Of a stretch of DNA of 64,000 nucleotides, positions 43,800-60,567 are shown in pieces. Position numbers and translations under genes: made by a program. The stretch covers positions 2,914,001 through 2,978,000 of the forward strand of contig NZ_CP094526.1 in NCBI RefSeq assembly GCF_029910095.1, given 5' to 3'. This DNA is from Bradyrhizobium sp. ISRA464. Its GTDB lineage: Bacteria; Pseudomonadota; Alphaproteobacteria; Rhizobiales; Xanthobacteraceae. The notes under the pieces are model-generated. The model searched no databases and was not told the DNA's origin. It was given only the letters and a program-made list of their open reading frames with translations. The first letter of the stretch is position 1. Each line of letters begins with the position of its first letter.

Positions 43800-44615
43800 T
43801 TACTTCCCGCGGTAATTTGGCGGTCGCTTCTCAAAGAAGGCGTTCATCCCCTCCTTTTGGTCCGATGTGGTGAAGGCATGCCGGATGGCTTGCCGCTCGA
43901 ATTCCAGTCCGGCATCGAGCGTAGTTTGGTAGGATGCAAGCACGGCCGCCTTGGCGAGTTCGGCGGAGCGCGGCGGCTTGCGCGCGATGATTTCGGCGAT
44001 TTCCAGCGCCCGGGCCAGCGCTTTGCCGCCGTCAGTGACTTCGGCCACAAGGCCTGCCTGCTGGGCGGCGCGTGCGGAGATGGGTTCTCCAGTTAGGATC
44101 ATCAGCATCGCAAGGGATTTACCGGCAACCCGCGTCAAACGCTGGGTTGCTCCGTCGCCCGGCAATATCCCGATGTTGATCTCAGGTTGGCCGAACACAG
44201 CGGTTTCGCCGGCGATCACGATATCGGCCAGCAACGCGAGTTCGTGACCGCCTCCGAAGCAAACTCCCTCGACGGCCGCGACTAGCGGTTTGGGGAAATT
44301 GGCGATATCTCGCCAGGCCGAGCGTCGGGCGGGATTGTCGATGGCCCCAAAACCACGCTGCTGCATCTCCTTGATATCAGCGCCGGCGGAAAAGAATGCT
44401 TCGCTTCCGCAAATCACGACACAGCGGATATCATCATCCAACGCGGCATTACGACACGCGGCTGCAAGCTTTGCGATCAGATCATTGTTCAATGCGTTAC
44501 GTTTGGAAGCCCTGTTCAATGTCAGCAAAAGCACGTGTGGGCGGGGAGATGTCGAAAGAATGAGATCCGGCTTCGTGTTCAATGCTGACGCTCCAGAGAT
44601 CGTCGAGGCAGCCAT
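43800..44615 (-). CDS. Enoyl-CoA hydratase/isomerase (crotonase) family protein
   Basis: 271 residues. The crotonase core is clear: LNRASKRNALNNDLIAKL, the oxyanion-hole AFFSAGADIKEM and GVCFGGGHELALLADI, and FGQPEINIGILPGDGATQRL. Both catalytic Glu positions are kept (GGHELAL and QPEINIGI), so hydratase activity is likely. It ends FFEKRPPNYRGK, typical for PaaF-like enzymes. A LacI-type operator lies 5 bp upstream of the start, with no evident Shine-Dalgarno, so the message may be leaderless. It lies downstream of the lacI-type gene and is separately controlled. Confidence 0.92.
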   Translation of the reverse strand: MAASTISGASALNTKPDLILSTSPRPHVLLLTLNRASKRNALNNDLIAKLAAACRNAALDDDIRCVVICGSEAFFSAGADIKEMQQRGFGAIDNPARRSAWRDIANFPKPLVAAVEGVCFGGGHELALLADIVIAGETAVFGQPEINIGILPGDGATQRLTRVAGKSLAMLMILTGEPISARAAQQAGLVAEVTDGGKALARALEIAEIIARKPPRSAELAKAAVLASYQTTLDAGLEFERQAIRHAFTTSDQKEGMNAFFEKRPPNYRGK

Positions 44616-44620
44616 TTACA

Positions 44621-44636
44621 CTGAAATCGTTTTCCG
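44621..44636. promoter_or_regulatory. LacI-family operator O2 (crotonase)
   Basis: CTGAAATCGTTTTCCG. Its reverse complement contains GAAAACGATTTCAG, the 14-mer shared with the operators at 45973 and 55671. It lies just upstream of the crotonase start, inside its promoter or initiation region. Confidence 0.75.
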
Positions 44637-44665
44637 AAACAACCATCCCGCTTGAGGGAGTTTGC

Positions 44666-45754
44666 TTATCGGATCTTCGTTCGCGTCCGCTTCGCGGACC
44701 GTTCATTTACCCGCGGCGCGGCCGTCGATGACCGCATCACCAGTCGATACGGCAACAGGACGCTCTTGGGAACAGGTCTGCCCGCGATGGCATTGATGAG
44801 ATAATCGGCGGCGCCACGGCCGATTTCTGCAGCGGGAATGCTGATCGTGGTGAGCGGAGGGTCCACTTGCGCCGACAGCTCCACGTCATCAAATCCCGTG
44901 ACGGAAAGGTCCCGCGGCACGTTTAAGCCCATTTTTCTCGCTTCGGCCATGGCGCCGATGGCGAGCGTATCGGTTGTGCAAATCACAGCGGTCGTTTCCG
45001 GATGGTCGGTAAGCAACTGACGAAGCGCGCCGCGCCCTTGAGCGAGGGAGTGATCGGCCCTGATGATCTGAGTCGGCCTAAGCTGGATGCCGACTTTGGA
45101 CAGGGCTCGTTGAATTCCGTCAAGCCGTGCACGCGAACGATCGTTTGAGGGAGGAATGTTGGCGATTGCTCCGAATCGAATATGGCCGAGCCCGATAAGA
45201 TACTCGGTCATTTCGTGGGTCGCGCGCTCGTTGTCGACGCCGATCGCTGGAATGCCGCCGTTGGCCTTGGAAACATAGGTGGTAACGACCGGAACGCCGG
45301 CCTGTGCTACCAGTTCTCTCAACTCCCGTCCGTGAGAACCTCCGACCAGTACAATGCCGTCAATGCCGCGTTGAATCAGGCTCTGCACCTCCTGCAGTTC
45401 TCGACGCTGATCGTATTGCGAGTTGGCGATAAAAAGCGTGTACCCGCTTTCGCTCAAACGATTCTGCAGCGCTTCCACGCCTTCCGCAAAGATGCCTAGG
45501 CCAAGGGTGGGAACGATCGCGCCGATCGTGCGCATACGTCCTGATTTCAATGCGCGGGCTGCACTGTCAGGCGTATAGGAAAGATCGGTGATGTATCGCA
45601 TCACCTTGTCGCGCAGTTCCGGCCTCACAATTTCAGGATGGTTCAGAACGCGTGAAACGGTCGCCGGCGAGACGTTTGCCTTCCTGGCAACATCCTCGAT
45701 CTTCACCCTGGCGTGCGGTCGGACTTTGGGGTCGGTAAATGATTTCTTTTCCAT
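44666..45754 (-). CDS. LacI-family transcriptional repressor
   Basis: 362 residues. The N-terminal helix-turn-helix and hinge (VKIEDVARKANVSPATVSRV, then RALKSGRMRTIGAIVP) lead to a periplasmic-binding-protein-type ligand domain (DGIVLVGGSHGRELRELVAQ, VTGFDDVELSAQVDPPLTTI). Its three putative operators have the central CG typical of the family. The ligand should be a sugar or derivative imported or released by the neighbouring genes. It is divergent from the CoA-transferase operon, with a 285-bp control region. Confidence 0.93.
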   Translation of the reverse strand: MEKKSFTDPKVRPHARVKIEDVARKANVSPATVSRVLNHPEIVRPELRDKVMRYITDLSYTPDSAARALKSGRMRTIGAIVPTLGLGIFAEGVEALQNRLSESGYTLFIANSQYDQRRELQEVQSLIQRGIDGIVLVGGSHGRELRELVAQAGVPVVTTYVSKANGGIPAIGVDNERATHEMTEYLIGLGHIRFGAIANIPPSNDRSRARLDGIQRALSKVGIQLRPTQIIRADHSLAQGRGALRQLLTDHPETTAVICTTDTLAIGAMAEARKMGLNVPRDLSVTGFDDVELSAQVDPPLTTISIPAAEIGRGAADYLINAIAGRPVPKSVLLPYRLVMRSSTAAPRVNERSAKRTRTKIR

Positions 45755-45946
45755 CGCATGTGCTCGAACGCCCGAAGCGGGCCGCGTCGATATCCAGAGG
45801 AGGTTAGATCACTTGCAGCGCAGGTATCGCAAGCCAAGCGCGCACGAGACGGGTGCTGCGTTAACGCACTGTGTGCGCGATCCCAATCTATATCAAGCGG
45901 AGTGCCTGATACGCTGGCTCTTTCGCCCGGCCGCGGCTTGACGCGC

Positions 45947-45974
45947 TTGACTTCGTCGATCGCCGGTCTATCCT
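45947..45974 (+). promoter_or_regulatory. Sigma-70-like promoter of the CoA-transferase/ABC operon
   Basis: TTGACT (45947-45952), 16 bp, then TATCCT (45969-45974). The operator at 45973-45988 overlaps the end of the -10 box, so bound repressor would block RNA polymerase. The rest of 45755-45946 shows no further obvious sites. Confidence 0.6.
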
Positions 45975-45988
45975 GAAAACGATTTCAG
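45973..45988. promoter_or_regulatory. LacI-family operator O1
   Basis: CTGAAAACGATTTCAG, a near-perfect palindrome (CTGAAA/TTTCAG arms, CG-containing centre). It lies between the divergent lacI-type gene and the CoA-transferase operon. Exact 14-mer matches occur at 44621-44636 and 55671-55686. Confidence 0.85.
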
Positions 45989-46039
45989 TAAGCGGATGTC
46001 GCCGCTTGGCCGCGGAAATAGAAAAGGCAAGCAAAGCGT

Positions 46040-47275
46040 ATGGTCGATCTTCTCAAGGGCATCCGGATCCTAAGCTTCAACCACTTCCTGATGGGTCCCG
46101 TTGGCGTGCAGTTTCTCGCCGATCTCGGCGCAGACGTTATTGCCGTGGAGCCGCCCGATGGCGCGTTTCAGCGGAAATGGGGAGGGGCAGACAAGCAGGT
46201 CGATGGCCAGACCATGTTGCTTCTGACAGGCAATCGCAACAAGCGCGGCCTGACGCTTGACCTCAAAAAGAGCGAGGCAGTTGCCGTAGCCAGGAAGCTG
46301 ATCGCAACATCGGACGTGATCGCCGAGAACTTCCGGCCTGGTGTTTTGGACAGGCTTCGGCTTGGCTATCAAGATGCCAGGAAGATCAAGCCCGATATCA
46401 TTTATGCTGCAGCGTCCGGATACGGTTCAGACGGGCCGTACGTCAATCGCCCCGGTCAGGATCTGTTGATGCAGGCGTTGTCCGGGCTCGCCATGATCAC
46501 CGGAAGCCGCGAGCACGGGCCGCGCGCCGTGGGCGTTTCGGCGATCGATCACCATGGGGCGGCGCTGTTCGCGGCCGGCATCCTTGCGGCATTGGTGAGA
46601 AAAGGGCGCACGGGCCAGGGATGCCGGGTCGACGTCAGCCTGCTGTCTGCTGCCCTCGACCTCCAGATGGAATCCTTTACCTGCTACCTCAATGGCCGGA
46701 GGCCCGACGACGTGCGTCAGCCGGGACCTATCGCTGGATGGTACTACGGCGCGCCTTACGGCATCTATGCCACTCGGGACGGACATATCGCGCTCTCTCT
46801 CGGATCGCTCGACGTGTTGGCCGATGCACTGGAACTCCCTGCCGATCAGCGTGTTCCGGACAGAGAGGCCTATCGCAGACGCGAAGAAGCAACGGCGGCA
46901 ATCGCGGCCAATCTCGCCAAGCGTACGACGTCGGAATGCCTTGCGCTGTTTGAGGTGCGCGGAATATGGCACGCGCCCGTCAACGACTATGCGGACGTCG
47001 TGGCCGACCCGCAGGTTATTCACAACAAGAGCTTCCAGGTCGTAAAGGGCGCAACCGGGTCGCCGATCACGCTCGTCAGCCATCCTGTCCGTTACGACGG
47101 CGAGGTTCCGGAAGTGCGTTTGCCGCCACAGGCATTGGGAGCGCAGACGCGTGAGATCTTGAAGGAGATCGGGTACGGTGAGGCCGATATCGACGCTCTC
47201 GCGGCGAATGGAGTCGTCGGCTTACCGCAGCCGGAAGACCGCGGACGAACGGTCAACAGTGGTGGCAGCCGTTAG
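46040..47275 (+). CDS. Family III CoA-transferase (CaiB/BaiF)
   Basis: 411 residues. It opens LLKGIRILSFNHFLMGPVGV with LADLGADVIAVEPPDG, the typical family III start, and contains RNKRGLTLDLKKSEA and AENFRPGVLDRLRLGY. The catalytic Asp lies in the segment YVNRPGQDLLMQALSGLAMI (GQD motif). Such enzymes move CoA between acids such as carnitine, succinate, mesaconate or aromatic acids. First gene behind operator O1; 33 bp before the sugar-binding protein. Pairing of a CoA-transferase with a sugar transporter is unusual and suggests an acid released from a glycoside. Confidence 0.92.
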   Translation: MVDLLKGIRILSFNHFLMGPVGVQFLADLGADVIAVEPPDGAFQRKWGGADKQVDGQTMLLLTGNRNKRGLTLDLKKSEAVAVARKLIATSDVIAENFRPGVLDRLRLGYQDARKIKPDIIYAAASGYGSDGPYVNRPGQDLLMQALSGLAMITGSREHGPRAVGVSAIDHHGAALFAAGILAALVRKGRTGQGCRVDVSLLSAALDLQMESFTCYLNGRRPDDVRQPGPIAGWYYGAPYGIYATRDGHIALSLGSLDVLADALELPADQRVPDREAYRRREEATAAIAANLAKRTTSECLALFEVRGIWHAPVNDYADVVADPQVIHNKSFQVVKGATGSPITLVSHPVRYDGEVPEVRLPPQALGAQTREILKEIGYGEADIDALAANGVVGLPQPEDRGRTVNSGGSR

Positions 47276-47308
47276 GGGGCCGGTTACGCTGTACAAACGG
47301 AGGAAGCA

Positions 47309-48604
47309 ATGCCGAAGAGGAAAGGTCTGGTGCGATTGCTGATGAGTGCTGCACTGGCGGTCGGGGCATCGTCGTGGGGCGCCGCCGCGCGAGCGGAGGA
47401 AACGCTCAACATCTGTCATGGCGGCCATCCGATCATGGTCGCGAGCCAGAAGATTCTCGACAAATGGGCGAAGAAGGAGGGCGTCAAATTGACGACGACG
47501 CTTATCGCCTACGATGTCTACGTGCCCAAGGTCACGCAGATGCTGACGACCGGAAGCGCTCAGTGCGATATCATCTGGCACAACGACGATTGGGGTCAGC
47601 TCTGGAAGCAGTATCTGGTCACAACGGACGATGTCGCCGGCATCAGCAATGTGGAGAAACAACCGCTCGACGCTTTCTGGAACGATCAACACAAGCTCAC
47701 GGTCGTTCCCATGGCCCATACCATCGGCACCTTCTTCTACCGCAAGGACCTTATTTCCGATGCCGAGGTGCCAAAGACTTTTGCCGATATGGTCCGAGTT
47801 GGCCAGAAGCTGCAAAAGGAAGGCAAGGTCAAATGGGGATATGTCGGCGGCATGTCCTTCAACAATACATGGTTCACACTGTGGTGGACTATGTGGAACA
47901 ACGGCTGCGATATCTTCAAGCCAATCTACGAGCGGGACAACAAGGTGCTCGCCGCCAACGGCTGGACCTCGATCATCGACCAACCCTGCCATCAGCAGAT
48001 CGTCGATTTCTGGTGGGACGCGCTGCACAAGGACAAGATCGCACCTGAGGCAAACACGACCTATGGACGCAACGAGGCGAACGCCATCTTCATGGCAGGC
48101 GATGCGGCGATGACGGTCGCCGATTCGACCTTCTGGGGCGATTACAATGACAAGAATAAATCGCGAGTGGCCGGAAACATCGGCATGGCTCCGTACCCGG
48201 CCGGCCCCGGCCGTGGCAAACCTATTACGTGGCTCGACATCTGGGGCTGGGCGATTCCGAAATCCGTGTCGCCCGCGCATCAGGCCCTTGCCAAGAAACT
48301 GCTGGGCGAGATGCTCACCGACGAAGATGGCCAGGTGCAGATGTGGAAAGAAACCGGCGGGCCTCCGCCCGACGTCAAGGTCTGGGACCACCTGGCAGCC
48401 AGCGATCCGGTATTTCGCAAGCTGAAGGAGGTCGACTTCGACCAGGATCACGCGCATTCAGCCTACTACTTCGCCAACTGGCCGAAGGTGCACAAGGCTT
48501 ACTCGGACGTAGTGATCAAGGCGCTGACCGGAAAGCGCGAGGACATTCCTGCCGTCCTCAAAGAAGGCGCCAAGTCGGTGCACGACGCAGCCGTCGCGCA
48601 GTAG
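47309..48604 (+). CDS. ABC transporter substrate-binding protein, carbohydrate (family 1)
   Basis: 431 residues. A signal peptide (MSAALAVGASSWGAAARA, cut before EETLN) precedes a type-1 binding protein: CHGGHPIMVASQKILDKWAK, GSAQCDIIWHNDDWGQLWKQ, and a C-terminal PKSVSPAHQALAKKLLGEML. Rich in Trp and Tyr in the binding cleft, as for sugar-binding members. GGAGGAAG precedes the ATG. Forms a transporter with the two permeases and ATPase downstream. Confidence 0.92.
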   Translation: MPKRKGLVRLLMSAALAVGASSWGAAARAEETLNICHGGHPIMVASQKILDKWAKKEGVKLTTTLIAYDVYVPKVTQMLTTGSAQCDIIWHNDDWGQLWKQYLVTTDDVAGISNVEKQPLDAFWNDQHKLTVVPMAHTIGTFFYRKDLISDAEVPKTFADMVRVGQKLQKEGKVKWGYVGGMSFNNTWFTLWWTMWNNGCDIFKPIYERDNKVLAANGWTSIIDQPCHQQIVDFWWDALHKDKIAPEANTTYGRNEANAIFMAGDAAMTVADSTFWGDYNDKNKSRVAGNIGMAPYPAGPGRGKPITWLDIWGWAIPKSVSPAHQALAKKLLGEMLTDEDGQVQMWKETGGPPPDVKVWDHLAASDPVFRKLKEVDFDQDHAHSAYYFANWPKVHKAYSDVVIKALTGKREDIPAVLKEGAKSVHDAAVAQ

Positions 48605-48622
48605 CGCACGGCGCGACGTCCG

Positions 48623-49579
48623 ATGACGAAGACGCATCCTTCCTCTGCCACCGACGGTCTGGCGCCCGGCACGGTGCCAGGCCGGCCGAGTGCGGGGCCG
48701 TGGCTCGGCGAGAAGGAGCGTTTCATGCTTCTTCTCATTGCGCCCGCCGGCATCGTGCTTGTGCTGTTTCAGATCGTGCCGATCATTATCGGCGCGAATG
48801 CAAGTTTTCGCGACTGGCAACTCTTCAATCCGGCCCAGACCTGGGTCGGTCTCCAGCATTATCTCTACATACTCAATGATCCGACATTCCTGACCGTTGT
48901 CTTGCCCAATACCTTTCTGCTGATGTTCTTTTCGGTGACGCTGTCGCTCATCGGCGGACTGGCGCTGGCGCATTACCTCCACCGGAATTTCGCGGGTCAG
49001 TGGCTCATGCAGACCGTCATTCTGCTGCCGCAAATGATCGCCCCGGTCATCAGCGCCATGATGATGCGCTGGATATTCAACGACCAGTTCGGCGTGGTGG
49101 CGGCGTTCCTCGATTGGATCGGATTGGGGCCGATCTCATGGCTTGCGCAGCGTTGGCCGAGCTTTTTTATCGTCATCTTAACTGATGTGTGGATCTGGAC
49201 GCCTTGGTTCGCGCTGATCCTGCTCGCCGGGCTGCGGAGCCTGCCACGTGAGCCGTTCGAGGCGGCCGAGATCGATGCGGCGAGCGCCTGGCGGACGTTC
49301 ACTCACCTGACGCTGCCGATGCTGCGGCCGGTGATCGCCGTCTGCGTTCTCATCCGCTCGATCGACGCCTTCCGCACGTTCGATGTGGTCTGGATTCTCA
49401 CCGGCGGCGGTCCGGCGCGCTCCACCGAAGTTTTCAGCATCTACACGTATATGGAGACCTTCGTGAACCTCGATTTCGGGCGCGGCTCGGCGGCCGCGAT
49501 CATCGGGGCGCTCATCATTTTGGTGGTCGCCGGCGCCATGTACAAGGTGGCCGGCCGAGTCACGGATGTGTCGCGATGA
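48623..49579 (+). CDS. ABC sugar permease, MalF/UgpA type
   Basis: 318 residues with a ~25-residue cytoplasmic N-terminus and six helices. The EAA loop reads LPREPFEAAEIDAASAWRTF followed by THLTLPMLRPVIAV, typical of carbohydrate permeases. Stop overlaps the next permease start by 4 bp. Confidence 0.93.
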   Translation: MTKTHPSSATDGLAPGTVPGRPSAGPWLGEKERFMLLLIAPAGIVLVLFQIVPIIIGANASFRDWQLFNPAQTWVGLQHYLYILNDPTFLTVVLPNTFLLMFFSVTLSLIGGLALAHYLHRNFAGQWLMQTVILLPQMIAPVISAMMMRWIFNDQFGVVAAFLDWIGLGPISWLAQRWPSFFIVILTDVWIWTPWFALILLAGLRSLPREPFEAAEIDAASAWRTFTHLTLPMLRPVIAVCVLIRSIDAFRTFDVVWILTGGGPARSTEVFSIYTYMETFVNLDFGRGSAAAIIGALIILVVAGAMYKVAGRVTDVSR

Positions 49580-50430
49580 CGATATTGCACACGAAAGAGT
49601 TCGACCGTCGCTACCGCTGGACCGATGCTTTGGCTCCGGGCGGCCGCCGCGCCTTTCTTTCGCTGGCGACGATCGCGATCGTTCTTCTGTTCCTCGGGCC
49701 GATCGTCATCCTGGTGGTCACTTCGCTTCGTCCGGGCTGGGCGGTCTTCTATGTCTACCGCGGTACCGATTTCACCCTGCAAAATTACCGCGACGTGCTG
49801 GCGACCGAGGCGGTTATGCACGCCTTCGTCAACAGCTTCCTGGTGGCAACGCTGGCCACCATCGTCTCCATCGGCGTCACGGTGTCGAGCGGCTATATGC
49901 TCTCGCGCTTTCGTGGACCGATCCCGCGAGCCTGGTTCGGCACGATCTACGTGTTCCGTACCGTGCCCTACATCTCTTGGGTATTGCCGCTGTATCTCGT
50001 CTGCTACTACCTTGGCATCTACGACACCTATGCAGGCATCCTGCTGCCGCACATTGCCGTTCACATCTGCTTCTTCTCGTGGATCATGAAGGGATTCTTC
50101 GACGGCATCGATCCGTCGATGGAATATGCGGCGCTGATCGACGGCTGCACGCGCTGGGGAGCCTTTCTGCGCGTCGCCTTGCCTTCGGCGATCCCGGCCA
50201 TCGCCGCGCTCGGCATCCTCTCCTGGCTCTACACCTGGAATGAGTTTCTGTTCGCGTTGATCCTCACTGGTCACAACACCGCGCTGATCACAGTGACGAT
50301 GGCCCAGTTTGTCACTGAGCTCGGTACCGCCTGGAATCTGATGAGCGCGATGGCAGTCATGGCCATGGGGCCGGCCATCATCATCACCATGTTCGCGCAG
50401 AAATATGTGATCCGCGGCCTGCGGATCTGA
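49576..50430 (+). CDS. ABC sugar permease, MalG/UgpE type
   Basis: 284 residues, six helices. Its EAA loop reads IDPSMEYAALIDGCTRWGAF then LRVALPSAIPAIAALGILSW, and the C-terminus ends FAQKYVIRGLRI, typical of MalG-like subunits. Translationally coupled to the preceding permease; 14 bp before the ATPase. Confidence 0.93.
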   Translation: MTILHTKEFDRRYRWTDALAPGGRRAFLSLATIAIVLLFLGPIVILVVTSLRPGWAVFYVYRGTDFTLQNYRDVLATEAVMHAFVNSFLVATLATIVSIGVTVSSGYMLSRFRGPIPRAWFGTIYVFRTVPYISWVLPLYLVCYYLGIYDTYAGILLPHIAVHICFFSWIMKGFFDGIDPSMEYAALIDGCTRWGAFLRVALPSAIPAIAALGILSWLYTWNEFLFALILTGHNTALITVTMAQFVTELGTAWNLMSAMAVMAMGPAIIITMFAQKYVIRGLRI

Positions 50431-50444
50431 GATGGATCGTCATC

Positions 50445-51542
50445 ATGGCCCAGGTCGTTCTCGAAGAGGTCAACAAGGAATACGGCAGCGTGCGCGCCGT
50501 CGTCGACGTGAATTTGACGGTGGCCGACGAGGAGTTTGTCGTGCTGGTCGGACCCTCAGGCTGCGGCAAGTCGACCACCTTGCGAATGGTCGCTGGGCTC
50601 GAGGAGATCACCCGCGGCGTCATCCGCATTGGCGAGCGGGTGGTCAACCGGCTGCCGCCGAGGGATAGGGACATCGCCATGGTGTTCCAGAACTATGCGC
50701 TCTACCAGCACATGACGGCCTACGACAATCTCGCCTTCGGACTGCGGAACCGGAAGGTGCCGGAAGCCGATATCACGAAGGAGGTTATGCGCGCCGCCGC
50801 GGTCCTCGGCATCGAGCAACTGCTGAGCCGCAAGCCGCGCGAGCTATCCGGCGGACAGCAGCAGCGGGTCGCGCTCGGCCGCTGTATGGTCCGGCATCCG
50901 CAGGTGTTCTTGTTCGATGAGCCGTTGTCCAATCTCGATGCCAAGCTGCGGGCGCAAATGCGCATCGAGCTGAAGCGACTGCGCGAGCGCGTGGCGACCA
51001 CTTCGATCTTCGTCACCCACGACCAGGTCGAGGCGATGACGCTCGGCGATCGCGTCGTCGTCATGCTCGATGGCCGCATCCAGCAGGCCGCAACACCGCT
51101 CGAAATCTATAACCGGCCGTGCAATCGCTTCGTCGCCGGGTTCATCGGCGCGCCGGCAATGAACTTCCTGTCTGTCGAGCTGCAGAACATCGATGATCGC
51201 TTGCACGCCGTAGCCGAGAACTTCCGCATTCGCGTGCCGCAAGATCGGGTCGGCGAACTCGCGCGCAGGCGTGCGCCTGACGTCGTGTTGGGCGTGCGGC
51301 CGGAGCACGTGCTCATGGGCGAGCCGCGGCCGGAACATGGCACCGGCTTCGACGCCTGTGTCGAAGTGACGGAGCAGCTCGGTGCCGAGCTTCTGGTCGC
51401 AGTGCGTGCGGCCGGGGCCACGGTGCTGGCTTCGCGCATCGACGCCGAGACGATGCTGGCGCTGCACCAGCCATTGCGTCTGTCGCTGGATCCGCGCGGT
51501 TTGCATTTCTTCGACCGCGAAAGCGGCGAGGCGATCAGGTGA
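50445..51542 (+). CDS. ABC sugar transporter ATPase, MalK/UgpC type
   Basis: 365 residues. Walker A (VGPSGCGKSTTLRM), signature (ELSGGQQQRVALGR), Walker B (VFLFDEPLSNLDAK) and a switch His in FVTHDQVEAMTLGD. The C-terminal ~120 residues form the OB/TOBE regulatory domain (GFIGAPAMNFLSVEL; VVLGVRPEHVLMG). Energises the preceding permeases. The frame of the following MaoC gene opens at the stop, but its true start is 96 nt later. Confidence 0.94.
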   Translation: MAQVVLEEVNKEYGSVRAVVDVNLTVADEEFVVLVGPSGCGKSTTLRMVAGLEEITRGVIRIGERVVNRLPPRDRDIAMVFQNYALYQHMTAYDNLAFGLRNRKVPEADITKEVMRAAAVLGIEQLLSRKPRELSGGQQQRVALGRCMVRHPQVFLFDEPLSNLDAKLRAQMRIELKRLRERVATTSIFVTHDQVEAMTLGDRVVVMLDGRIQQAATPLEIYNRPCNRFVAGFIGAPAMNFLSVELQNIDDRLHAVAENFRIRVPQDRVGELARRRAPDVVLGVRPEHVLMGEPRPEHGTGFDACVEVTEQLGAELLVAVRAAGATVLASRIDAETMLALHQPLRLSLDPRGLHFFDRESGEAIR

Positions 51543-51637
51543 GAGCAGCTGGCGAGGGGAGGAGAGGTCGCGCTGTCGGGGATCTGGATTGGATGAGCGC
51601 GACGCGCCCAAAGAACCGAATGTGGAAAGGCAAGACA

Positions 51638-52105
51638 ATGAGTGCAATCGGAGCGAAGGTGGGGGACACCGTCAGATTCTCGAAAACGGTCGGCGAGTCC
51701 GACATTTATCTCTTTGCGGGGTTGACCGGAGACCTCTCGCAAAATCACGTCGATGACGAGTTCATGAGCCATTCGATCTACGGCAAGCGCATTGCGCATG
51801 GTGCGCTGATGGTCGGCTTCATGTCCACCGCTTCGACCCGGATGATCGAAGAAAGCCTGCGCAAGGGTATCGATTCGACGCCGGTGTCGCTCGGCTACGA
51901 CGGGGTGCGGTTTCTCAGGCCCGTCTATATTAACGACACTGTGACGGTGACCTACACGATCACCGAAGTCGACGAAGAGCGGCGCCGGACGCTTGCAAGT
52001 GTCGACGTTACCAATCAGCGGGATGAGCTGGTTGCCGTCGGCAAGCATCACCTCAAATGGACGCGCAATGCGACGGAGCGGCCCGGATCGGGATCGGCCG
52101 CTTGA
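51638..52105 (+). CDS. MaoC-type (R)-specific enoyl-CoA hydratase
   Basis: 155 residues, single hot-dog domain of PhaJ type. The catalytic Asp and His are in LFAGLTGDLSQNHVDDEF (hydratase 2 motif), with GKRIAHGALMVGFMSTAS downstream. Hydrates trans-2-enoyl-CoA to the (R)-3-hydroxy form. It complements the CoA-transferase and the crotonase, suggesting a CoA-thioester branch in the pathway. GGAAAGG precedes the ATG at 51638; an earlier start in the same frame is not supported. Confidence 0.9.
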   Translation: MSAIGAKVGDTVRFSKTVGESDIYLFAGLTGDLSQNHVDDEFMSHSIYGKRIAHGALMVGFMSTASTRMIEESLRKGIDSTPVSLGYDGVRFLRPVYINDTVTVTYTITEVDEERRRTLASVDVTNQRDELVAVGKHHLKWTRNATERPGSGSAA

Positions 52106-52145
52106 GGGGCGGATCTCGCGATCCCCGAAAGAAAAGGCGGTCGCA

Positions 52146-53342
52146 GTGACGGCCGAAAAAACGACAATCCGGGAGAAGATCGTGAACTCGAGCAAGTGGC
52201 GCTGGGCACAGGCCATCGACCGCATGCGGGAGCGGATCGATCAGACGCTAGGCGTTCTGCAATCGGAATTCCCGCACTGGGCCGATGCTGCAACGGGCAA
52301 ATGGACCACGACGGTCGACGGGGATTGGACCGGCGGCGCCTGGCCCGGTATGATGTGGCTGCTGGCACGACGTACCGGTGATGCAAAATACCTCGATGCG
52401 GCCCGCCTGTGGAGCAGCCGGCTCAGGCCGCGCGCGCACTTGCAAACCGCATTCAAGGGCTTTGGATTCTATTACGGCGTTGCGCTCGGCGATCTCCTGT
52501 GCGGAGACAAGGATGCCGCAGCGCTGGCGCTGGATGCCGCCCAATCCTTGAGGAGCCAGTATGATCCGAGGCTCGAACTCATCCCGCTGGGTGGCGACGC
52601 CGAGGAATCGGAGGGCGTCGGCAACTCATTTAGCAGCATCGATTCGCTGCAGGCCGTGCCGCTCCTGTTGTGGGCGGCGGATAAGACAGGTGACCCGTCA
52701 TTCGCCGATGTCGCGGCACGACACACCACGCGGGTCCTTGACATTCATATGCGGCCTGAGGGCTCGATCATCCAGTCGAGCGAGCTGAATCCAGCGAACG
52801 GCGATGTCGTTCGCCATTTCACTCACAAGGGGTTTAGCGACAACAGCGTCTGGGGGCGGGCGCAGGCTTGGGGACTTGTCTATGCCGCGATGGCGTTCGC
52901 TCATCGCCCGCAGGAGAAGCGCTGGATGGAGCAGTTGCTTGCCGGCGCCGACTGGTGGCTCTCGCACGTGCCTGCCAGCCTGGTTGCGTTCTGGGATTTT
53001 GATGATCCGGGGATTCCCAACACCGAAACCGATACGGCGGCCACCACCATCGCCTGTTCGGCCCTGCTCAAGCTCGGGCGGCTCGCACCGTCAGCGGAGC
53101 TGCGCGCGAAATATCACGACGCAGGCGAACGCACGGCGATCGCACTTATCGACGGCTACCTGACACCTGTCGGCAATAAGGACCCCCGGCCGCAGGGCAT
53201 GCTGGTCGGCGCTTGTTTCAACAAGCGTCGCGATGCGCGCGTGCGGGATTTTGCAACCAATGCCGAGACGATCTTCGGATCTTACTATTTGTTCGAGTCG
53301 CTGAATGTCCTGGATGGACTGATCGAGGCTGAAAAGATCTAG
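52146..53342 (+). CDS. GH88/GH105-like hydrolase lacking one catalytic Asp
   Basis: 398 residues from GTG at 52146 (AAAAGGCGG upstream). An (alpha/alpha)6-barrel of the unsaturated uronyl hydrolase type: GDWTGGAWPGMMWLLARRTG, SSIDSLQAVPLLLWAADKTG, and the C-terminal YYLFESLNVLDGLIEAEK. Asp166 (SSIDSL) matches Asp149 of Bacillus UGL. Where the second catalytic Asp (THD-x-GF) should be, the sequence reads FKGFGF, with Gly105. The paralogue at 53629-54852 keeps both. So it is a diverged, possibly inactive or mechanistically altered member. Last complete gene of the O1 operon. Confidence 0.82.
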   Translation: MTAEKTTIREKIVNSSKWRWAQAIDRMRERIDQTLGVLQSEFPHWADAATGKWTTTVDGDWTGGAWPGMMWLLARRTGDAKYLDAARLWSSRLRPRAHLQTAFKGFGFYYGVALGDLLCGDKDAAALALDAAQSLRSQYDPRLELIPLGGDAEESEGVGNSFSSIDSLQAVPLLLWAADKTGDPSFADVAARHTTRVLDIHMRPEGSIIQSSELNPANGDVVRHFTHKGFSDNSVWGRAQAWGLVYAAMAFAHRPQEKRWMEQLLAGADWWLSHVPASLVAFWDFDDPGIPNTETDTAATTIACSALLKLGRLAPSAELRAKYHDAGERTAIALIDGYLTPVGNKDPRPQGMLVGACFNKRRDARVRDFATNAETIFGSYYLFESLNVLDGLIEAEKI

Positions 53343-53386
53343 CTTTACGGATTGAATAGTTGCGCATTTATCGTGGAACTTCGTTG

Positions 53387-53634
53387 ATGACGAAATCAGA
53401 AATTCCGGTTTATAGCCGGCTGTTTCCGGTCGCGCCGACGCCGTTCACCGAATCCAGTGAACTCGACCTTGAAGGCCTGCGTCGCGTCTTGGACTGCATG
53501 ATCGACCACGGCATCGACGGCATCTGCATTCTGGCCAACTATTCCGAGCAGTTCCTGTTGTCGGATCAGGAACGCAACGCACTGGTCGATCTCTGCCTGT
53601 CGCATGTGGCCGGCCGCCGACCAATCGCTCATGC
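53387..53634 (+). pseudogene. DapA-family aldolase/dehydratase, N-terminal fragment
   Basis: MTKSEIPVYSRLFPVAPTPF, then LDLEGLRRVLDCMIDHGIDG and SEQFLLSDQERNALVDLCLS, are the first ~80 residues of a DHDPS-like protein. Members act on 2-keto-3-deoxy sugar acids or related keto acids. Similarity ends at about 53634 (GRRPIAH), exactly where the convergent GH88 gene ends; the rest of the TIM barrel with the Schiff-base Lys is gone. So the gene was cut by the rearrangement that placed the GH88 gene here. Confidence 0.8.
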
Positions 53635-54852
53635 GAAAACCGGCACCTCCGCCAGCGCTCGGAATTTGCCGGGCAGCATGACCCGGCACAGGGCCTCGTT
53701 AAAAAAGAAGTCGCCAAACATGGTAGCGCTGCGCACGCCTTCATTGTGGGGCTTCGAATAGCAGGAATTCTTCAAGAGCCCACGATGCGAAGATTCTCGT
53801 GCGAACTCGTCGCGGCACAGTGCTTCCAGCATGGCCAGGCCCCGTTCGGTCCATGCTGAAGCAGCGGCGGCGCCCGGATGCAGCCGGCCCATCTCCAGCA
53901 GGGCTGATGAAACCACGGCCGCTGCTGCCGTATCCTTGATGTCGGCGTCAGTTCCCGTTGCATCGAAATCCCAGGGGGGCACCTGCCGTCCGGCAAGGCG
54001 CTTCACATAATAGTTTGCAAGCTGCTCCGCCAGCAGAAGATATTTGCGTTGGCCGGTCTCCCGCGCGGAATTGACATAGCCGTAGATGGCCCAGCCCTGA
54101 CCGCGGCTCCAGGCGGATTCGTCGCTCGCCCCCTGGTAGGTATAGCCGCGCTTTCGTTCGCCGCTCACAACGTCGTATTCCACTGCATGGTAGGTCGAAT
54201 GATCGGAACGGATGAAGGCTTTTGCCGTCATGTCCGCATGCGCCTCGGCTGCCAGCCGATAGCTACAATCGCCGCTGTAATTTGTTGCCCAGTACAAAAG
54301 CGACAGGTTGGCCATCGTATCGATGGCCGAACTGCATCGCCCACGCAGATCGTTCAGCGGACCCCATGCGGCGAGATAGGCACCGCTGCGTGTGGTCATG
54401 ATCCGCGCCCGCAGCTTGTCGGCTGCGGTCATCGCGATATCCGCATACCAGTTGTCCCCGGTGATCGTGTAACCCGGAATCGCGCTGCTGTCGAAGATGA
54501 AGCCGATGTCATGGGTGTTGGGATCTTCGGCGCGCTGTGCAACGAGCCGCATGCGCTCGCGCGCCCAGGTCAGGTATTTTTTCTCGCTGGTGTGGAGATA
54601 GCATGCAAGCAGCAGACCTACCCAGAAGCCGCACAGCCAATTGCCGTGGCTCCAAGCCTCACCGGTGTAGCCGGCCGACAGCGACGCGGGCAGCTTGATC
54701 CATGAACCGTCAGGCGCCGTCACATGCGGAAACTCGACGCCGAGCGTCGGTTCGTCCTCGGCCACTTTCCGCGCCATGATGTCCAGCACCTCGGTGAAGA
54801 GCCGACGCCGGGCAGCGGTGATCTTGATCGGGCTGATTGAGGTGTCCGGCAT
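53629..54852 (-). CDS. Unsaturated glucuronyl/rhamnogalacturonyl hydrolase, GH88/GH105 type
   Basis: 407 residues. It has the (alpha/alpha)6-barrel motifs GYTGEAWSHGNWLCGFWVGL, PNTHDIGFIFDSSA with Asp115, SAIDTMANLSLLYWATNYSG with Asp178, and a C-terminal ATMFGDFFFNEALCRVM. The two Asp correspond to the catalytic pair of Bacillus UGL with near-identical spacing. These enzymes hydrate the 4,5-unsaturated uronate left by polysaccharide lyases and release the aglycone sugar. No signal peptide, so cytoplasmic. It converges on the truncated DapA gene. Regulation not evident. Confidence 0.88.
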   Translation of the reverse strand: MPDTSISPIKITAARRRLFTEVLDIMARKVAEDEPTLGVEFPHVTAPDGSWIKLPASLSAGYTGEAWSHGNWLCGFWVGLLLACYLHTSEKKYLTWARERMRLVAQRAEDPNTHDIGFIFDSSAIPGYTITGDNWYADIAMTAADKLRARIMTTRSGAYLAAWGPLNDLRGRCSSAIDTMANLSLLYWATNYSGDCSYRLAAEAHADMTAKAFIRSDHSTYHAVEYDVVSGERKRGYTYQGASDESAWSRGQGWAIYGYVNSARETGQRKYLLLAEQLANYYVKRLAGRQVPPWDFDATGTDADIKDTAAAAVVSSALLEMGRLHPGAAAASAWTERGLAMLEALCRDEFARESSHRGLLKNSCYSKPHNEGVRSATMFGDFFFNEALCRVMLPGKFRALAEVPVFA

Positions 54853-55327
54853 GCCTGTTTCCCGATAAGTAGAGTTGGGAGTGGGGCTCGCGCGCTTGGT
54901 GAGTTAGGGTGAGAGCGAAGCGGGAGTCGAGCGACTTGATTTCAGAGCCGTAATCGTGGTTCGCGACCGGCAACGAGCAACACGAAGCTGCCAGGTCTGT
55001 GGAGCAAAAGGCGAAGGATCGATCCTACCGGTTGTCGGTTGGACCCCACGGGCATTGCTTTTCTTACCTCGTCCATCGGCATGCGGGGTGGGCGCTGAAA
55101 ACAACGTCCTCCATATCGTCGAATGAGATAACAGGCGAGCCCATTTTTGGCAGGTCGTCCCGCGCCGAATTTGTGCTGCGATGCAACGAAAAAGGGCGGA
55201 CTATTTATCTGCGAAGGTGCTTGGGCGTCGACAGTCCGCGGAGGACGGCCTCGCCGGTGTGCCCCGCTTCAAGCATCAAGCCCGCGCTCCGAAATCGGCA
55301 TTCGTCGCTTTTCGCGGTGTCGACATC
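54853..55327. other. Gene-free stretch between the GH88 gene and the acyl-CoA dehydrogenase remnant
   Basis: Short frames only, with no ribosome sites or recognisable motifs on either strand. It must hold the promoter of the minus-strand GH88 gene near 54870-54950. No copy of the LacI operator is present. Confidence 0.35.
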
Positions 55328-55600
55328 TCATTGCGCCGGGAGTTCGCGTGAGATGATCATGCGCTGGATCTCCGATGTGCCTTCCACGATCTCCAGCACC
55401 TTGGCATCGCCAAAGGCCCGCGAGACCGCGAACTCGCTCATGATGCCGTACCCGCCGTGGATCTGCAGCGCCTGGTGTGCTGCTTCCACGCGCGCTCGGT
55501 TGCGAGCAGCTTTGCCATCGCTGCCTGCTGATGAGGTCGGCCCCGGTTAGTGCGAACCGCCCTTGGCGATCCACAAGGCTTGAGAACCTCGGCCAGCGCT
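55328..55600 (-). pseudogene. Acyl-CoA dehydrogenase, C-terminal remnant with a frameshift
   Basis: On the minus strand the frames give QQAAMAKLLATERA, then after a shift VEAAHQALQIHGGYGIMSEF, AVSRAFGDAKVLEIVEGTSE and IQRMIISRELPAQ, ending at 55328. This is the conserved end of acyl-CoA dehydrogenases, including the EIVEGTSEIQR flavin/substrate motif. Upstream parts are absent. A relic of a further CoA-dependent step in this region. Confidence 0.82.
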
Positions 55601-55670
55601 CTGGAAGTGTACCACCTATGCTGCTGCACGACCTAGCCTTTAGCATCGAACGCGGATCGGGTGCCTTTCG

Positions 55671-55686
55671 TAGAAAACGATTTCAG
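55671..55686. promoter_or_regulatory. LacI-family operator O3 (branched-chain-type ABC operon)
   Basis: TAGAAAACGATTTCAG contains the exact 14-mer GAAAACGATTTCAG of O1 and O2. It lies 180 bp upstream of the first gene of the liv-type operon. Links that transporter to the LacI regulator 10 kb away. Confidence 0.75.
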
Positions 55687-55865: not shown

Positions 55866-57119
55866 ATGAAGATCAGCAAGGACAATAACAAGGGGTTCGG
55901 CATGACCCGCCGGACACTGCTGGCGGGGGCGGCCATCGGCGCAACCCAAATCGCGGCGCCCTTTGTCATCACGGCGCGGGCCGCGGAAGCAATCAAGATC
56001 GGCATTCTTCTGCCGAAATCCGGACCCTACGCGATCCAGGGCGAGACGGGTCACAACGGCGCCCTGGTCGCCGTCGACGATTTCGGCGGGCATGTGCTGG
56101 ACCGGCCGATCGAGATCGTCTGGCTCGACGAATCGAGCCCGCAATCGACCCAGCAGAACATGCGAAAGTTGATCGAGGAGGAGAAGGTCGCCGCGATCCA
56201 GGGCGGAGTATCGAGCGGCGATGTGCTTGCGATCATGCCGGTCGCCGAACAGGCGAAGATGCTGCTGATGGCGACTGGGCCGAACGCGACCGAAATCACC
56301 GGCAAGAACTGCAACAAATATACCTTCCGCGTCGATCTTCCGAACAAGGTCACCGTGCACAGCGTCTATCCGCAGCTGAAACAGCGCGGGAAGAAGTGGT
56401 ATTTTATCGTCGCCTCCTACGCTTGGGGCATCGACGCCTACAATCAAATGAAGGACGTTCTCGTCAAGGACGGCGGAACGGTGCTGGGATACGATCAGGC
56501 CCCGCTCGGAACGACCGACTTCAGCTCCTACATTCTGAAATTGCGCCAGGCCAAGCCGGATGTCCTTTATGTCGGATTGGGCGGAACCGATCTCACCAAC
56601 ATGCTGAAGCAAATGCATGAGATCGGGCTGACGCGGCAAATGGGGCTGTCGTCTCCGATTGTGAACGACAGCGACTTGTGGGCAGCCGGCCCAGAGGCGG
56701 CGTTCGGGACTTATCCGAAACTGTGGAACTATACCGGTCCGCACCTCACCAAGCGCAGCGCCGAGTTCGTCGACGCCTACAAGAAGAAATTCGGCGCGCC
56801 GCCGGAAGTCGAAGGCTGGCAGGACTGGTTCGGCATGACAGCGATCTTGACGGCAATCAAGGAAACCAAATCGACGGATTCGGCGAAGCTGATCGCCTTC
56901 CTCGAAGAACACAAATTCGACGGCTACAAGGACGCGCCGATCGGCTTCCGCAATTTCGACCATCAACTCGTGCAGCCGCTGCTGGTCGCGACGGTGAAGG
57001 AAAAGATAACCGACAAGTACGACTACTTTGATATCGGCAGCGAATATCCCAACGATCCCTCCCAGCTCGACGCCGCCTACGGCACCAAGGCCGAAATCGG
57101 CTGTGTCTTCAAGAGCTGA
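55866..57119 (+). CDS. Branched-chain-type ABC substrate-binding protein
   Basis: 417 residues. A Tat-like signal (MTRRTLLAGAAIGATQIAAP, ending ITARA) precedes a Peripla_BP_6 domain: IKIGILLPKSGPYAIQGETG, then LIEEEKVAAIQGGVSSGDVL and VEGWQDWFGMTAILTAIKET. In rhizobia such proteins bind amino acids but also aromatic or short acids. AGGGAGAAG precedes the ATG. First gene of the O3 operon. Ligand unknown; context favours an organic acid from the CoA pathway. Confidence 0.92.
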   Translation: MKISKDNNKGFGMTRRTLLAGAAIGATQIAAPFVITARAAEAIKIGILLPKSGPYAIQGETGHNGALVAVDDFGGHVLDRPIEIVWLDESSPQSTQQNMRKLIEEEKVAAIQGGVSSGDVLAIMPVAEQAKMLLMATGPNATEITGKNCNKYTFRVDLPNKVTVHSVYPQLKQRGKKWYFIVASYAWGIDAYNQMKDVLVKDGGTVLGYDQAPLGTTDFSSYILKLRQAKPDVLYVGLGGTDLTNMLKQMHEIGLTRQMGLSSPIVNDSDLWAAGPEAAFGTYPKLWNYTGPHLTKRSAEFVDAYKKKFGAPPEVEGWQDWFGMTAILTAIKETKSTDSAKLIAFLEEHKFDGYKDAPIGFRNFDHQLVQPLLVATVKEKITDKYDYFDIGSEYPNDPSQLDAAYGTKAEIGCVFKS

Positions 57120-57199
57120 CCGGGCGTTTTCGCTGTCGAGCCGGCGTGGCGGCAAAGGCCGCCTTGCCGATTTTTGACCCAAGGCGAGACGGAAATGGC

Positions 57200-58069
57200 A
57201 TGACCGATCTCATCATCTCGCAGGTCGTCAACGGGCTCGTGCTCGGTTTCCTGTACGTGCTGATTGCGATCGGCCTCTCGATCATTTTCGGGATGCTTGG
57301 CGTGGTGAACTTCGCCCATGGCGTCTATTTCGCGCTGGGCGCATATTTCGCGCTCTCCTTGCTCGACAGCCTGGGCCCCTGGGCGATCATGCTTGCGCCG
57401 CTCGGGGTCGCGATCATCGGCATGGTTATCGAAACGACGCTGATGCGCCCCCTCTACGGCAAGGAACCGCTGCTCGGCCTGTTCATGACCTTCGGCATCG
57501 CGCTGTTTATCGAAGAACTGATCCGCACCATTTGGGGTGCGGCCGGACGGCCGTTCAATCCGCCGGCCTTTCTCTCGGGCTTCATCGTCTGGGGGCCGGT
57601 GCTCGTCACAAAGTATCGCCTGTTCGTGCTTCTGGTGACCATTCTCATCCTGGTGGCGCTCTGGCTGTTTCTGCACAGCACGCGATATGGCCGCATCATT
57701 CGCGCCGGGAGCCGCGATCCCGAGATGGTGAGCATGCTCGGCATCAACCTCAAGCGGGTCTTTACCGCGGTATTCGGCCTCGGAACTGCGGTTGCCGGCA
57801 TCGCCGGCGTGCTCGCCGCGCCGCTTTGGAGCGTGGTCCCTTCGATGTCGGAAGCCGCCATCATGCCGGCCTTCGTCGTCGTCACGATCGGCGGATTGGG
57901 CAGTTTCGGAGGCGCCATGATCAGCGGACTTCTGGTCGGAATATCGGTTGCGCTGTCGATCCAGTTCTGGCCGGCGGCATCCGCAGCGGTGATGTACGCG
58001 CTCATGATCGTCGTGCTCTTGATCCGGCCGCGCGGCCTGCTCGGCGAGAGCTGGGAGCGATTTGAATGA
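57200..58069 (+). CDS. Branched-chain-type ABC permease, LivH
   Basis: 289 residues, about eight helices. It starts MTDLIISQVVNGLVLGFLYV and contains GMLGVVNFAHGVYFALGAYF, GGLGSFGGAMISGLLVG and the C-terminal LIRPRGLLGE, all typical of LivH. The ATG at 57200 follows GAGACGGAA. The stop overlaps the next start by 4 bp. Confidence 0.94.
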   Translation: MTDLIISQVVNGLVLGFLYVLIAIGLSIIFGMLGVVNFAHGVYFALGAYFALSLLDSLGPWAIMLAPLGVAIIGMVIETTLMRPLYGKEPLLGLFMTFGIALFIEELIRTIWGAAGRPFNPPAFLSGFIVWGPVLVTKYRLFVLLVTILILVALWLFLHSTRYGRIIRAGSRDPEMVSMLGINLKRVFTAVFGLGTAVAGIAGVLAAPLWSVVPSMSEAAIMPAFVVVTIGGLGSFGGAMISGLLVGISVALSIQFWPAASAAVMYALMIVVLLIRPRGLLGESWERFE

Positions 58070-60567
58070 AGCGTGCTCGGAAATGGCTCCGGCATCCCAT
58101 TCTGATTGCCGGCATTGTGTTCGCGGTGCTGCCGTTCATCCTGCCGAGAATCGGCTCGACCACAAGCCTTGCGACGGAGATCGCGATCTACGCGCTCTAC
58201 GGCCTCGGCTTTAACCTGCTGCTCGGATACACCGGGCTGGTCTCGTTCGGTGCATCTGCATTTTTTGGCGCGGCAAGCTATGCCGCGGGCATCGCCGTGC
58301 TTCACCTGTTCGACAACATGTACCTGTCGATCGTCTTCGGCACTTTGACCGCTGGCGTGCTCGGCCTCGTGATCGGGCTGCTCATCTTGCGGCGACGCGG
58401 CATTTATTTCTCGCTGCTGACGCTGGCATTCACCCAATTATTTTACGAGATCGCGTTCAAGTGGACCGACGTGACCGGCGGCGAGAACGGTCTCCAGGGC
58501 ATTTCGCGATCCAGTTTGGTCTCGCCGCTGGCCTATCACTATTTCGTGGTCTCAATCGTGCTCTGCGGCATGTACGCGATCTGGCGCATCGTCCACTCGC
58601 CGTTTGGACGCGTGCTGCAGGCGCTGCGGGACAATGAGCAGCGCGTGCGCTGCCTCGGCTACGACACCAAGCGCGCCAAGCTTGTGGCATTTGTCGTCTC
58701 CGCAACCGTGATCGGGCTCGGCGGAAGCCTGCTGACCTTCCTGATCCAGAGCGTCTATGCCGACAACCTGAACTGGCAGCATGCCGGCGACCCGGTGATG
58801 ATGACCATTCTGGGCGGCATCCATCACTTCCTCGGTCCAACCTGGGGAGCGGTGATCTTTACCGTGCTAAGCGACCAGTTGAGCTCGATCACGGAGCACT
58901 GGTGGCTGTTCTTCGGAGCGATCCTGATCGCCTTCATCCTGCTCTCGCCCGAGGGCGTTTCCGGAATCTGGTTCCGGCTGACAGGACGAAGACACTGGAG
59001 CTTGACCGCGGAAGAGATTCCACCAAGACCGCGGGGGCTCAGGAGCCTGCTTGACAGCGAACCCGCGGCATCTGCTGCCGGAGACGATCTGGTCCTCGAG
59101 GTCCGTGGCTTGTCGAAGCGGTTCGGCTCGCTGGTCGTCGCCGACGAGGTCCATCTCACCGTCAAGGCGCGTACGCTGCACAGCCTGATCGGTCCAAATG
59201 GCGCCGGCAAGACGACATTCTTCAACATTTTGACCGGGCTGTTGCCGAACGACGGCGGCACGCTGCGATTCCGCGGCCGCGACATCACGGATATGCCAGC
59301 GCACAAGCGCATCGACGCCGGGCTGGCGCGATCCTTCCAGATCGTCAGCGTTTTCACCAATCTTACGGTTTTCGAGACCGTGCGGGTCGCAGCGCAAGCG
59401 CATTCGCGATATCGCGGCTCGCTCTGGCGTGACGCCTATCGCTTGCCTGGCGTCTGCGAGAAGGCATGGACGCTGCTTGCCACCGTGGGGCTCGCCGCGC
59501 GAGCGCACGAACTGTGCGCCAACCTTGCCCATGGCGAGCAGCGTCTGCTCGAAATCGCGGTGGCGCTCGCGACCGACCCCGAACTGCTGCTGCTGGACGA
59601 GCCGCTGGCGGGGCTGGGCGACGCCGACCGGGAGCGGATCGGCAGCCTGGTCCGCGAACTTTCCCGCAGCCATACCGTGCTGCTGATCGAACACGACATC
59701 GATCGTGTTCTGTCGCTCTCCGACCGCATCACGGTCCTTCATCAGGGCCACGTCATTGCGGAAGGCGAGCCGTCCGCAATCGCCAACGATGCGGCGGTGC
59801 TCGAGGCCTATCTCGGACGTCACGGCACTCGCCGCGCGCAACAGCCGTCGGGCAAATTGGCAGCGGCCGTGCGTCCGCCGCTGCTGACCTTGAGGGGCGT
59901 CGACGCCGGCTACAAGGCGAGCCGTATTCTGCACGGCATCGACCTCGAGGTGCGGGAAGGCGAGGTGGTCGCGCTGCTTGGGCGCAATGGCGTCGGCAAG
60001 ACGACGACACTGCAAACCATCATGGGCGTACTCAGGCCGACCGGGGGCACTATCACATTTGCCGGCGCGGACATCACCTCGCTGTCGCCGGATCGTGTCA
60101 ACCGTCACGGCATCGCCATCGTGCCGGAGGGGCGCCGGATATTTCCGAACCTCACCGTCGCGGAGAACCTTGCGCTGGCGCAGCGCGAGGGAGGCTGGCC
60201 GCTCGACGACATTTATCGACTGTTCCCCAAACTGCGCACGCGCCAGGATGCGCGCGGCGAGAACCTCAGCGGCGGCGAACGACAGATGCTGGCGATCGGG
60301 CGCGCCCTGTGCGCGCCGCAGCGGCTGATCCTGCTGGACGAGCCGTTCGAGGGTCTAGCGCCCTCGGTGGTTGCGGAGGTGCTCGCTGCGATCGAACAAC
60401 TTCGCAACAGGACCAGCATCCTGCTCGTCGAACACAAGGTCGACTTGGTGCTCAATTTCGCCGACAGAGCCTACATCATGGTCAACGGTCAGATGTCCTA
60501 TGTCGGCGACAGCGCGGCCCTGCAAAATGACGCCGAGACTCAAACTCGGCTGCTCGGCGTCGGATGA
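58066..60567 (+). CDS. LivM-LivG-LivF fusion: permease plus two ABC ATPases in one chain
   Basis: 833 residues. Residues 1-~320 are a LivM permease (YALYGLGFNLLLGYTGLVSF; GGENGLQGISRSSL; LGGIHHFLGPTWGAV; SPEGVSGIWFRLTGRR). After a short linker, residues ~345-590 are a LivG ATPase, with Walker A GPNGAGKTTF at ~376 and signature LAHGEQRLLEIAVAL at ~486. Then residues ~615-833 are a LivF ATPase, with Walker A GRNGVGKTTT at ~638 and signature LSGGERQMLAIGRAL at ~733. There are no stops or internal ribosome sites at the junctions. LivM-LivG fusions are known; joining all three means the complete transporter needs only this chain, LivH and the binding protein, with fixed 1:1 ATPase stoichiometry. 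Confidence 0.93.
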   Translation: MKRARKWLRHPILIAGIVFAVLPFILPRIGSTTSLATEIAIYALYGLGFNLLLGYTGLVSFGASAFFGAASYAAGIAVLHLFDNMYLSIVFGTLTAGVLGLVIGLLILRRRGIYFSLLTLAFTQLFYEIAFKWTDVTGGENGLQGISRSSLVSPLAYHYFVVSIVLCGMYAIWRIVHSPFGRVLQALRDNEQRVRCLGYDTKRAKLVAFVVSATVIGLGGSLLTFLIQSVYADNLNWQHAGDPVMMTILGGIHHFLGPTWGAVIFTVLSDQLSSITEHWWLFFGAILIAFILLSPEGVSGIWFRLTGRRHWSLTAEEIPPRPRGLRSLLDSEPAASAAGDDLVLEVRGLSKRFGSLVVADEVHLTVKARTLHSLIGPNGAGKTTFFNILTGLLPNDGGTLRFRGRDITDMPAHKRIDAGLARSFQIVSVFTNLTVFETVRVAAQAHSRYRGSLWRDAYRLPGVCEKAWTLLATVGLAARAHELCANLAHGEQRLLEIAVALATDPELLLLDEPLAGLGDADRERIGSLVRELSRSHTVLLIEHDIDRVLSLSDRITVLHQGHVIAEGEPSAIANDAAVLEAYLGRHGTRRAQQPSGKLAAAVRPPLLTLRGVDAGYKASRILHGIDLEVREGEVVALLGRNGVGKTTTLQTIMGVLRPTGGTITFAGADITSLSPDRVNRHGIAIVPEGRRIFPNLTVAENLALAQREGGWPLDDIYRLFPKLRTRQDARGENLSGGERQMLAIGRALCAPQRLILLDEPFEGLAPSVVAEVLAAIEQLRNRTSILLVEHKVDLVLNFADRAYIMVNGQMSYVGDSAALQNDAETQTRLLGVG

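Follow-up and report, generated by a model that had tools for sequence, protein, structure and literature searches.

A 64,000-base stretch of the Bradyrhizobium sp. ISRA464 genome (bases 2914001–2978000 of its single 8,462,457-base contig, NZ_CP094526.1; hereafter the window) carries a gene for a LacI-family repressor, lacI, surrounded by genes for a crotonase, a class III CoA-transferase, two ABC importers and two proteins resembling hydrolases of family GH88. Copies of one short palindromic element, the candidate operators O1–O3, lie upstream of three transcription units in this locus, and the relation between these copies and the repressor is the subject of this analysis. The features of the locus are as follows.

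44666..45754, minus strand: LacI-family repressor, helix-turn-helix plus periplasmic-binding-protein-like sensor domain (PF00356, 57.9 bits; PF13377, 120.1 bits)
45973..45988, no strand: candidate operator O1, CTGAAAACGATTTCAG, between lacI and the CoA-transferase gene, where the predicted -10 of the latter ends
44621..44636, no strand: candidate operator O2, CTGAAATCGTTTTCCG (plus-strand reading), in the lacI/crotonase gap
55671..55686, no strand: candidate operator O3, TAGAAAACGATTTCAG, 179 bases 5' of the liv binding-protein gene
45947..45974, plus strand: predicted promoter of the CoA-transferase operon, TTGACT-16-TATCCT (promoter scan)
43800..44582, minus strand: crotonase/enoyl-CoA hydratase, its open reading frame (ORF) opening at 44615 (PF00378, 219.5 bits)
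46040..47275, plus strand: class III CoA-transferase, CaiB type (PF02515, 323.1 bits)
47309..51542, plus strand: sugar-type ABC importer, with binding protein, two permeases and ATPase (PF01547, PF00528 twice, PF00005)
51539..52105, plus strand: MaoC-like hydratase/dehydratase (PF01575, 66.4 bits)
51993..53342, plus strand: GH88-like protein GHa (2ahf_A, 1.2e-41; no Pfam match)
53360..53761, plus strand: truncated DHDPS-type gene (PF00701 over residues 19–98 only)
53629..54852, minus strand: GHb, resembling GH88 unsaturated glucuronyl hydrolases (1vd5_A, 7.1e-47; PF07470, 22.1 bits, below its cut-off of 26.6)
55866..60567, plus strand: liv-type ABC importer, with binding protein, permease and a fused permease-ATPase-ATPase (PF13458, PF02653, PF00005 twice)

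The crotonase gene lies 3' of lacI on the same strand, the genes from the CoA-transferase to GHa (46040–53342) diverge from lacI, and the truncated DHDPS-type gene, GHb and an acyl-CoA-dehydrogenase-like remnant separate GHa from the liv-type importer.

The 14-mer GAAAACGATTTCAG occurs exactly at 44621–44634 (minus strand), 45975–45988 (plus) and 55673–55686 (plus), upstream of the crotonase, the CoA-transferase operon and the liv operon, respectively, which confirms an observation of the initial annotation; 45973 and 55671, quoted there as site positions, are the starts of the 16-bp frames, the 14-mers beginning two bases later. These are the only exact copies in the whole genome, all three within 11 kb, against 0.015 expected per genome from base composition, in keeping with the annotation's judgement that three chance copies are very unlikely; the random genome-wide copies that it had named as speaking against a regulon did not appear. 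At up to two mismatches the window contains four matches, the fourth being the palindrome at 45973 read in reverse, a number reached in none of 100 shuffles of the window (mean 0.32), and the genome 59 places, including the three exact and three one-mismatch copies, compared with 13 for a reversed control pattern. An origin of the 14-mers by chance, or as copies of a dispersed repeat, is hardly credible and was rejected on these counts and on conservation in relatives; the flanks of the three copies, unlike one another by eye, also argue against a repeat. A matrix made solely from the sites of relatives scores the window sites at 28.3, 24.4 and 23.5, and no other place in the window above 10.9. 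O1 pairs at seven of eight positions about a central CG, so the earlier description of an almost perfect palindrome was apt, and this even, CG-centred form is the one expected of LacI-family operators: PMC4052901 gives even palindromes for 1251 of 1303 LacI-type factors, 1173 with a central CG.

The positions of the copies relative to promoters were also considered. O1 overlaps the predicted -10 box of the CoA-transferase operon, as had been claimed, the overlap amounting to two bases. Taken alone the promoter call is weak (one promoter-like match in the lacI region versus a shuffled mean of 0.6); a TTGAC block recurs in 34 of 35 aligned intergenic rows (by eye). O2 fills the 16 bases between a -35-like TTGTTT (44642–44637) and a -10-like TGTAAA (44620–44615), elements assigned by eye that were not among the matches of the promoter scan of the lacI region. 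Translation of the crotonase probably starts at TTG 44582 (codon 12), 38 bases from O2, and not at the ATG 44615 that opens the ORF, since the latter would fall within the -10 and since the 16 relatives compared have an ATG or TTG at the codon equivalent to residue 12 or directly beside it; the site upstream of this gene is as described. O3 lies between TTTCGT (55666–55671) and TATGGT (55689–55694), again by eye. The start of lacI is 218 bases from O1, and the promoter scan listed no promoter for lacI itself; in PMC4052901, 72% of LacI-type factors are autoregulated.

Footprinting in relatives indicates which of these bases are kept. Sixty-six loci were obtained, from which 34 orthologous loci (L061–L094, 71–89% identity; 31 Bradyrhizobium and three other metagenome-assembled genomes) were used and 32 at 27–35% left out. 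The site upstream of lacI is exact in 25 of the 34 and carries one mismatch in eight, being lost in L083 only, and a CoA-transferase match follows beyond it in 32, reduced to an N-terminal part in L066 and L087 and absent in L083 and L094. Across 35 aligned intergenic regions (the 34 and that of the window), conservation over 16 columns is highest at the site (0.90 versus a median of 0.475). The crotonase is present in 28 loci, and within 110 bases 5' of its start the best match has one mismatch in one locus, two in 21, three in five and four in one, roughly 35–45 bases before the start; random stretches of the same loci, real sites included, attain two or fewer mismatches in 45 of 3000 cases. 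Sites before liv genes were found in 7/7 loci (six of the 34, and L165), with two mismatches in five and three in two, about 104–190 bases before the gene.

A second line of evidence comes from presence and absence across 149 genomes, the organism's own included. A LacI orthologue (78–100% identity) is encoded in 22 of them, and a further 46 have only more distant LacI proteins (E 1e-60). The palindrome pattern CTGAAAWCGWTTTCAK is found in 23 genomes, comprising 22/22 with the orthologue versus 1/127 without it (Fisher p = 2e-25). Liv orthologues, tried as a presence/absence control, were too few to serve, with only 2/149 genomes at 1e-150. The sites are kept in orthologous promoters and go with the presence of the regulator, as in a local regulon, and it is on this pairing of presence/absence and footprinting that the repressor reading rests: the LacI protein encoded at 44666–45754 is very probably a local repressor that co-controls three promoters through the 16-bp palindrome. 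The LacI-family regulon proposed in the initial annotation is largely upheld by the same figures, with the lacI-upstream site within one mismatch in 33/34 loci.

Gene order around the sites differs between relatives, and the sites follow their targets through these rearrangements. A single site is common to GHb and the crotonase in L085, GHb and liv have a site between them in L084, L086, L088, L090 and L092, and one stretch of G015 (L165) reads CoA-transferase-site-lacI followed by GHb-site-crotonase-site-liv. GHb, which in the window is without a good operator of its own, thus adjoins one in relatives. Of six genomes inspected for pattern matches far from lacI, four (G019, G050, G052, G038) have a further exact site, 12–19 kb away from lacI or on a separate contig, which opens a unit of a regulator gene and GHb. 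These units (L157–L160) adjoin a second CoA-transferase (46% identity), a MaoC-like gene and a crotonase-like gene, the last only partial in G019; the regulator is of AraC type in L158, the one scanned.

The same fluidity gives some colour to another explanation, in which O1 alone is functional while O2, at the crotonase, and O3, at liv, survive as relics of earlier gene orders. The locus has indeed been rearranged and contains truncated genes, and relic-like sites are on record among the relatives. Twenty of the 34 loci have a gene for a CehA/McbA-type metallohydrolase between lacI and the crotonase (L067:11254–13890 and equivalents); the 878-residue protein passes the CehA/McbA cut-off (NF038032) and has no match in the PDB, and an MFS gene adjoins it in L067, the one scanned. 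A site with up to two mismatches persists after lacI in 13 of the 20 loci, although another gene now follows, and eight of the 13 are without the CG core, so that these sites may be read as decaying relics; the crotonase-side sites keep the core. The three window copies, in contrast, are identical over 14 bases with the CG core kept, and the crotonase and liv sites stand at similar distances in relatives, which makes relics an unlikely account of O2 and O3.

It might also be supposed that the palindrome is the operator of another factor, a LacI paralogue or the AraC-type regulator beside GHb, the neighbouring LacI merely sharing the locus. LacI-family genes at 33–50% identity are common in these genomes, and a regulator gene does stand at one site in the four relatives described above. 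However, the pattern CTGAAAWCGWTTTCAK is found in 0/46 genomes that have only the more distant LacI proteins, and no AraC gene is present among the window proteins scanned. A genome of another family points the same way: in G132, a LacI 50% identical by search (48% in alignment) has nearly the same operator, CTGAAAGCGATTTCAG, heading a same-strand run of MaoC (64%), binding protein, ATPase, permease and lacI. A second palindrome, ATGAAAGCGTTTTCAT, follows 210 bases on, before an aldose-epimerase gene, and the G132 importer is nearest to the galactofuranose type, below cut-off. Together these observations render control by another factor improbable.

Several observations weigh against assigning all three sites to the repressor. 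One genome, G110, has CTGAAAWCGWTTTCAK without a LacI match at E 1e-60; the genomes are related and the sites gene-linked and co-inherited, so that 22/22 does not amount to 22 independent events, and the pattern was picked after named relatives of the same group had been seen. L094 keeps the site without a CoA-transferase match, L066 has only the N-terminal piece of that gene, and in the 35-region alignment the first codons of the CoA-transferase are nearly as conserved (0.88) as the site. O3 differs from the full palindrome by two mismatches, and the liv promoter elements pass no consensus test, none being listed by the promoter scan. The far sites in G072 and G079 (L161:5849, L162:5423) lie beside genes without a visible link. 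Finally, the three one-mismatch places of GAAAACGATTTCAG in the organism's own genome are also in 5' regions: one (genome position 3983115) precedes CTP synthase, another stands about 80 bases 5' of a DPBB_1-domain gene, and the third is within the opening codons of a further liv-type binding protein. The relatives examined have none of the three genes among their regulon targets, and the places may be chance matches or sites of other factors, that at 3983115 perhaps of another LacI-type factor; leaving them out of the regulon is a judgement.

The place at 3983115 reads CTGAAATCGCTTTCAA (L166:2616–2631), in a gap about 90 bases before the gene. A wider regulon in the organism's own genome was considered and rejected: with up to three mismatches allowed, the 16-mer is matched 275 times over the two strands and the reversed control 231 times, no bulk excess, and among the matches listed, the first 100 or so of the places, 3983115 is the best other one.

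The protein itself is a clear member of its family, with PF00356 at residues 19–63 and PF13377/PF00532 over residues 76–344, all above cut-off. Its best full-length matches, both to solved structures (3h5o, GntR; 1rzr, CcpA) and to NCBIfam models, are of the GntR/CcpA type, from which it nonetheless differs in NCBIfam scores far below the cut-offs (244.4 versus 400; 206.5 versus 442.35) and in targets that are few and near its own gene, unlike those of the global CcpA/GntR set. CcpA sites resemble TGAAAnCGnTTTCA. All 18 listed NCBIfam models for named LacI equivalogs (GntR, CcpA, CytR and others) scored below their own cut-offs.

From the sequences we infer a simple mode of action, comprising binding by this protein, repression and a sugar-like ligand. 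In its ligand-free state a dimer of the LacI type would bind the 16-bp palindrome CTGAAAnCGnTTTCAG at three places and block RNA polymerase at the CoA-transferase operon, the crotonase and the liv-type importer; a sugar-type ligand, either imported or made from an imported compound, would then release the repressor, turning the three units on together. The sugar-like nature of the ligand is supported by the arrangement in G132. That a sugar importer, an acid-type importer and CoA enzymes answer to one inducer, as initially proposed, would follow if one repressor binds all three sites. As such, this is a local LacI-family regulon of an already-known type. It is like the local LacI sugar regulons reconstructed in PMC4052901 in its even, CG-centred palindrome, its promoter site beside the repressor gene and its few targets including a sugar importer, and unlike them in that the targets include a class III CoA-transferase, MaoC, a crotonase and a liv-type importer. 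The terms 'Bradyrhizobium', 'glucuronyl' and 'CoA' are absent from the main text of that paper.

The enzymes suggest what the regulon may serve. The best solved match of the CoA-transferase is succinate-hydroxymethylglutarate CoA-transferase (9br6_A, 1e-55), and the ATPase of the sugar importer passes the UgpC cut-off (468.5 versus 432). The single GH88 protein first annotated is GHa, whose place in the operon stands and whose true start is probably later in its ORF; a second such protein, GHb, lies on the opposite strand. For comparison we used 1vd5 and 2ahf, which we take to be GH88 unsaturated glucuronyl hydrolases of Bacillus, the catalytic Asp residues of 1vd5 presumably being D88 and D149. 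The alignment of GHb with 1vd5 spans about 320 residues, with both acidic motifs (HDIGF, IDTMAN) intact in GHb, as are both Asp residues, which are also kept in 12/12 relatives having those stretches (one match without them was set aside). GHa differs from the Bacillus enzymes in having Gly for the first Asp (FKGFGF), the second being kept; this Gly, at the Asp position changed in 2ahf, is found in 24/24 relatives with the stretch (two matches without it set aside), so that GHa would seem to belong to a subfamily of GH88-like proteins whose active site is altered.

Two gene fragments lie nearby. The DHDPS-type gene is truncated against the end of GHb and is full length (309 residues) in the relative L061, and a short acyl-CoA-dehydrogenase-like C-terminal remnant, named by eye from its translation, occupies 55330–55560 on the minus strand.

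A substrate was sought through solved-structure, Pfam and NCBIfam matches, which gave no convincing chemistry and from which no single pathway could be derived. No polysaccharide lyase is among the proteins scanned, and the neighbouring DHDPS and aldehyde-dehydrogenase genes of the relatives fall below the cut-offs of uronate-pathway models. We can offer only tentatively, as a possibility that is rather doubtful at present, that an imported and possibly acylated unsaturated glucuronide is cleaved by GH88 enzymes and part of it degraded as CoA thioesters by the CoA-transferase, MaoC and crotonase, under one sugar-responsive repressor. The association between GH88 proteins and CoA enzymes recurs, since four relatives have a second, paralogous cluster beside GHb, at the same operator. 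Neither a GH88–CoA-thioester pathway nor the motif letters nor this gene combination was found in a literature search in which DNA strings are caught only as printed letters and most subscription papers lie outside.

The regulation is itself ordinary; what stands out as unexplained is the link from GH88 to the CoA enzymes. The analysis provides a testable operator and target list for an unnamed LacI-type repressor, 31 of whose 34 orthologous loci are in Bradyrhizobium, and it suggests a pathway, undescribed in the literature searched, that would connect glucuronide hydrolases with CoA-thioester enzymes.

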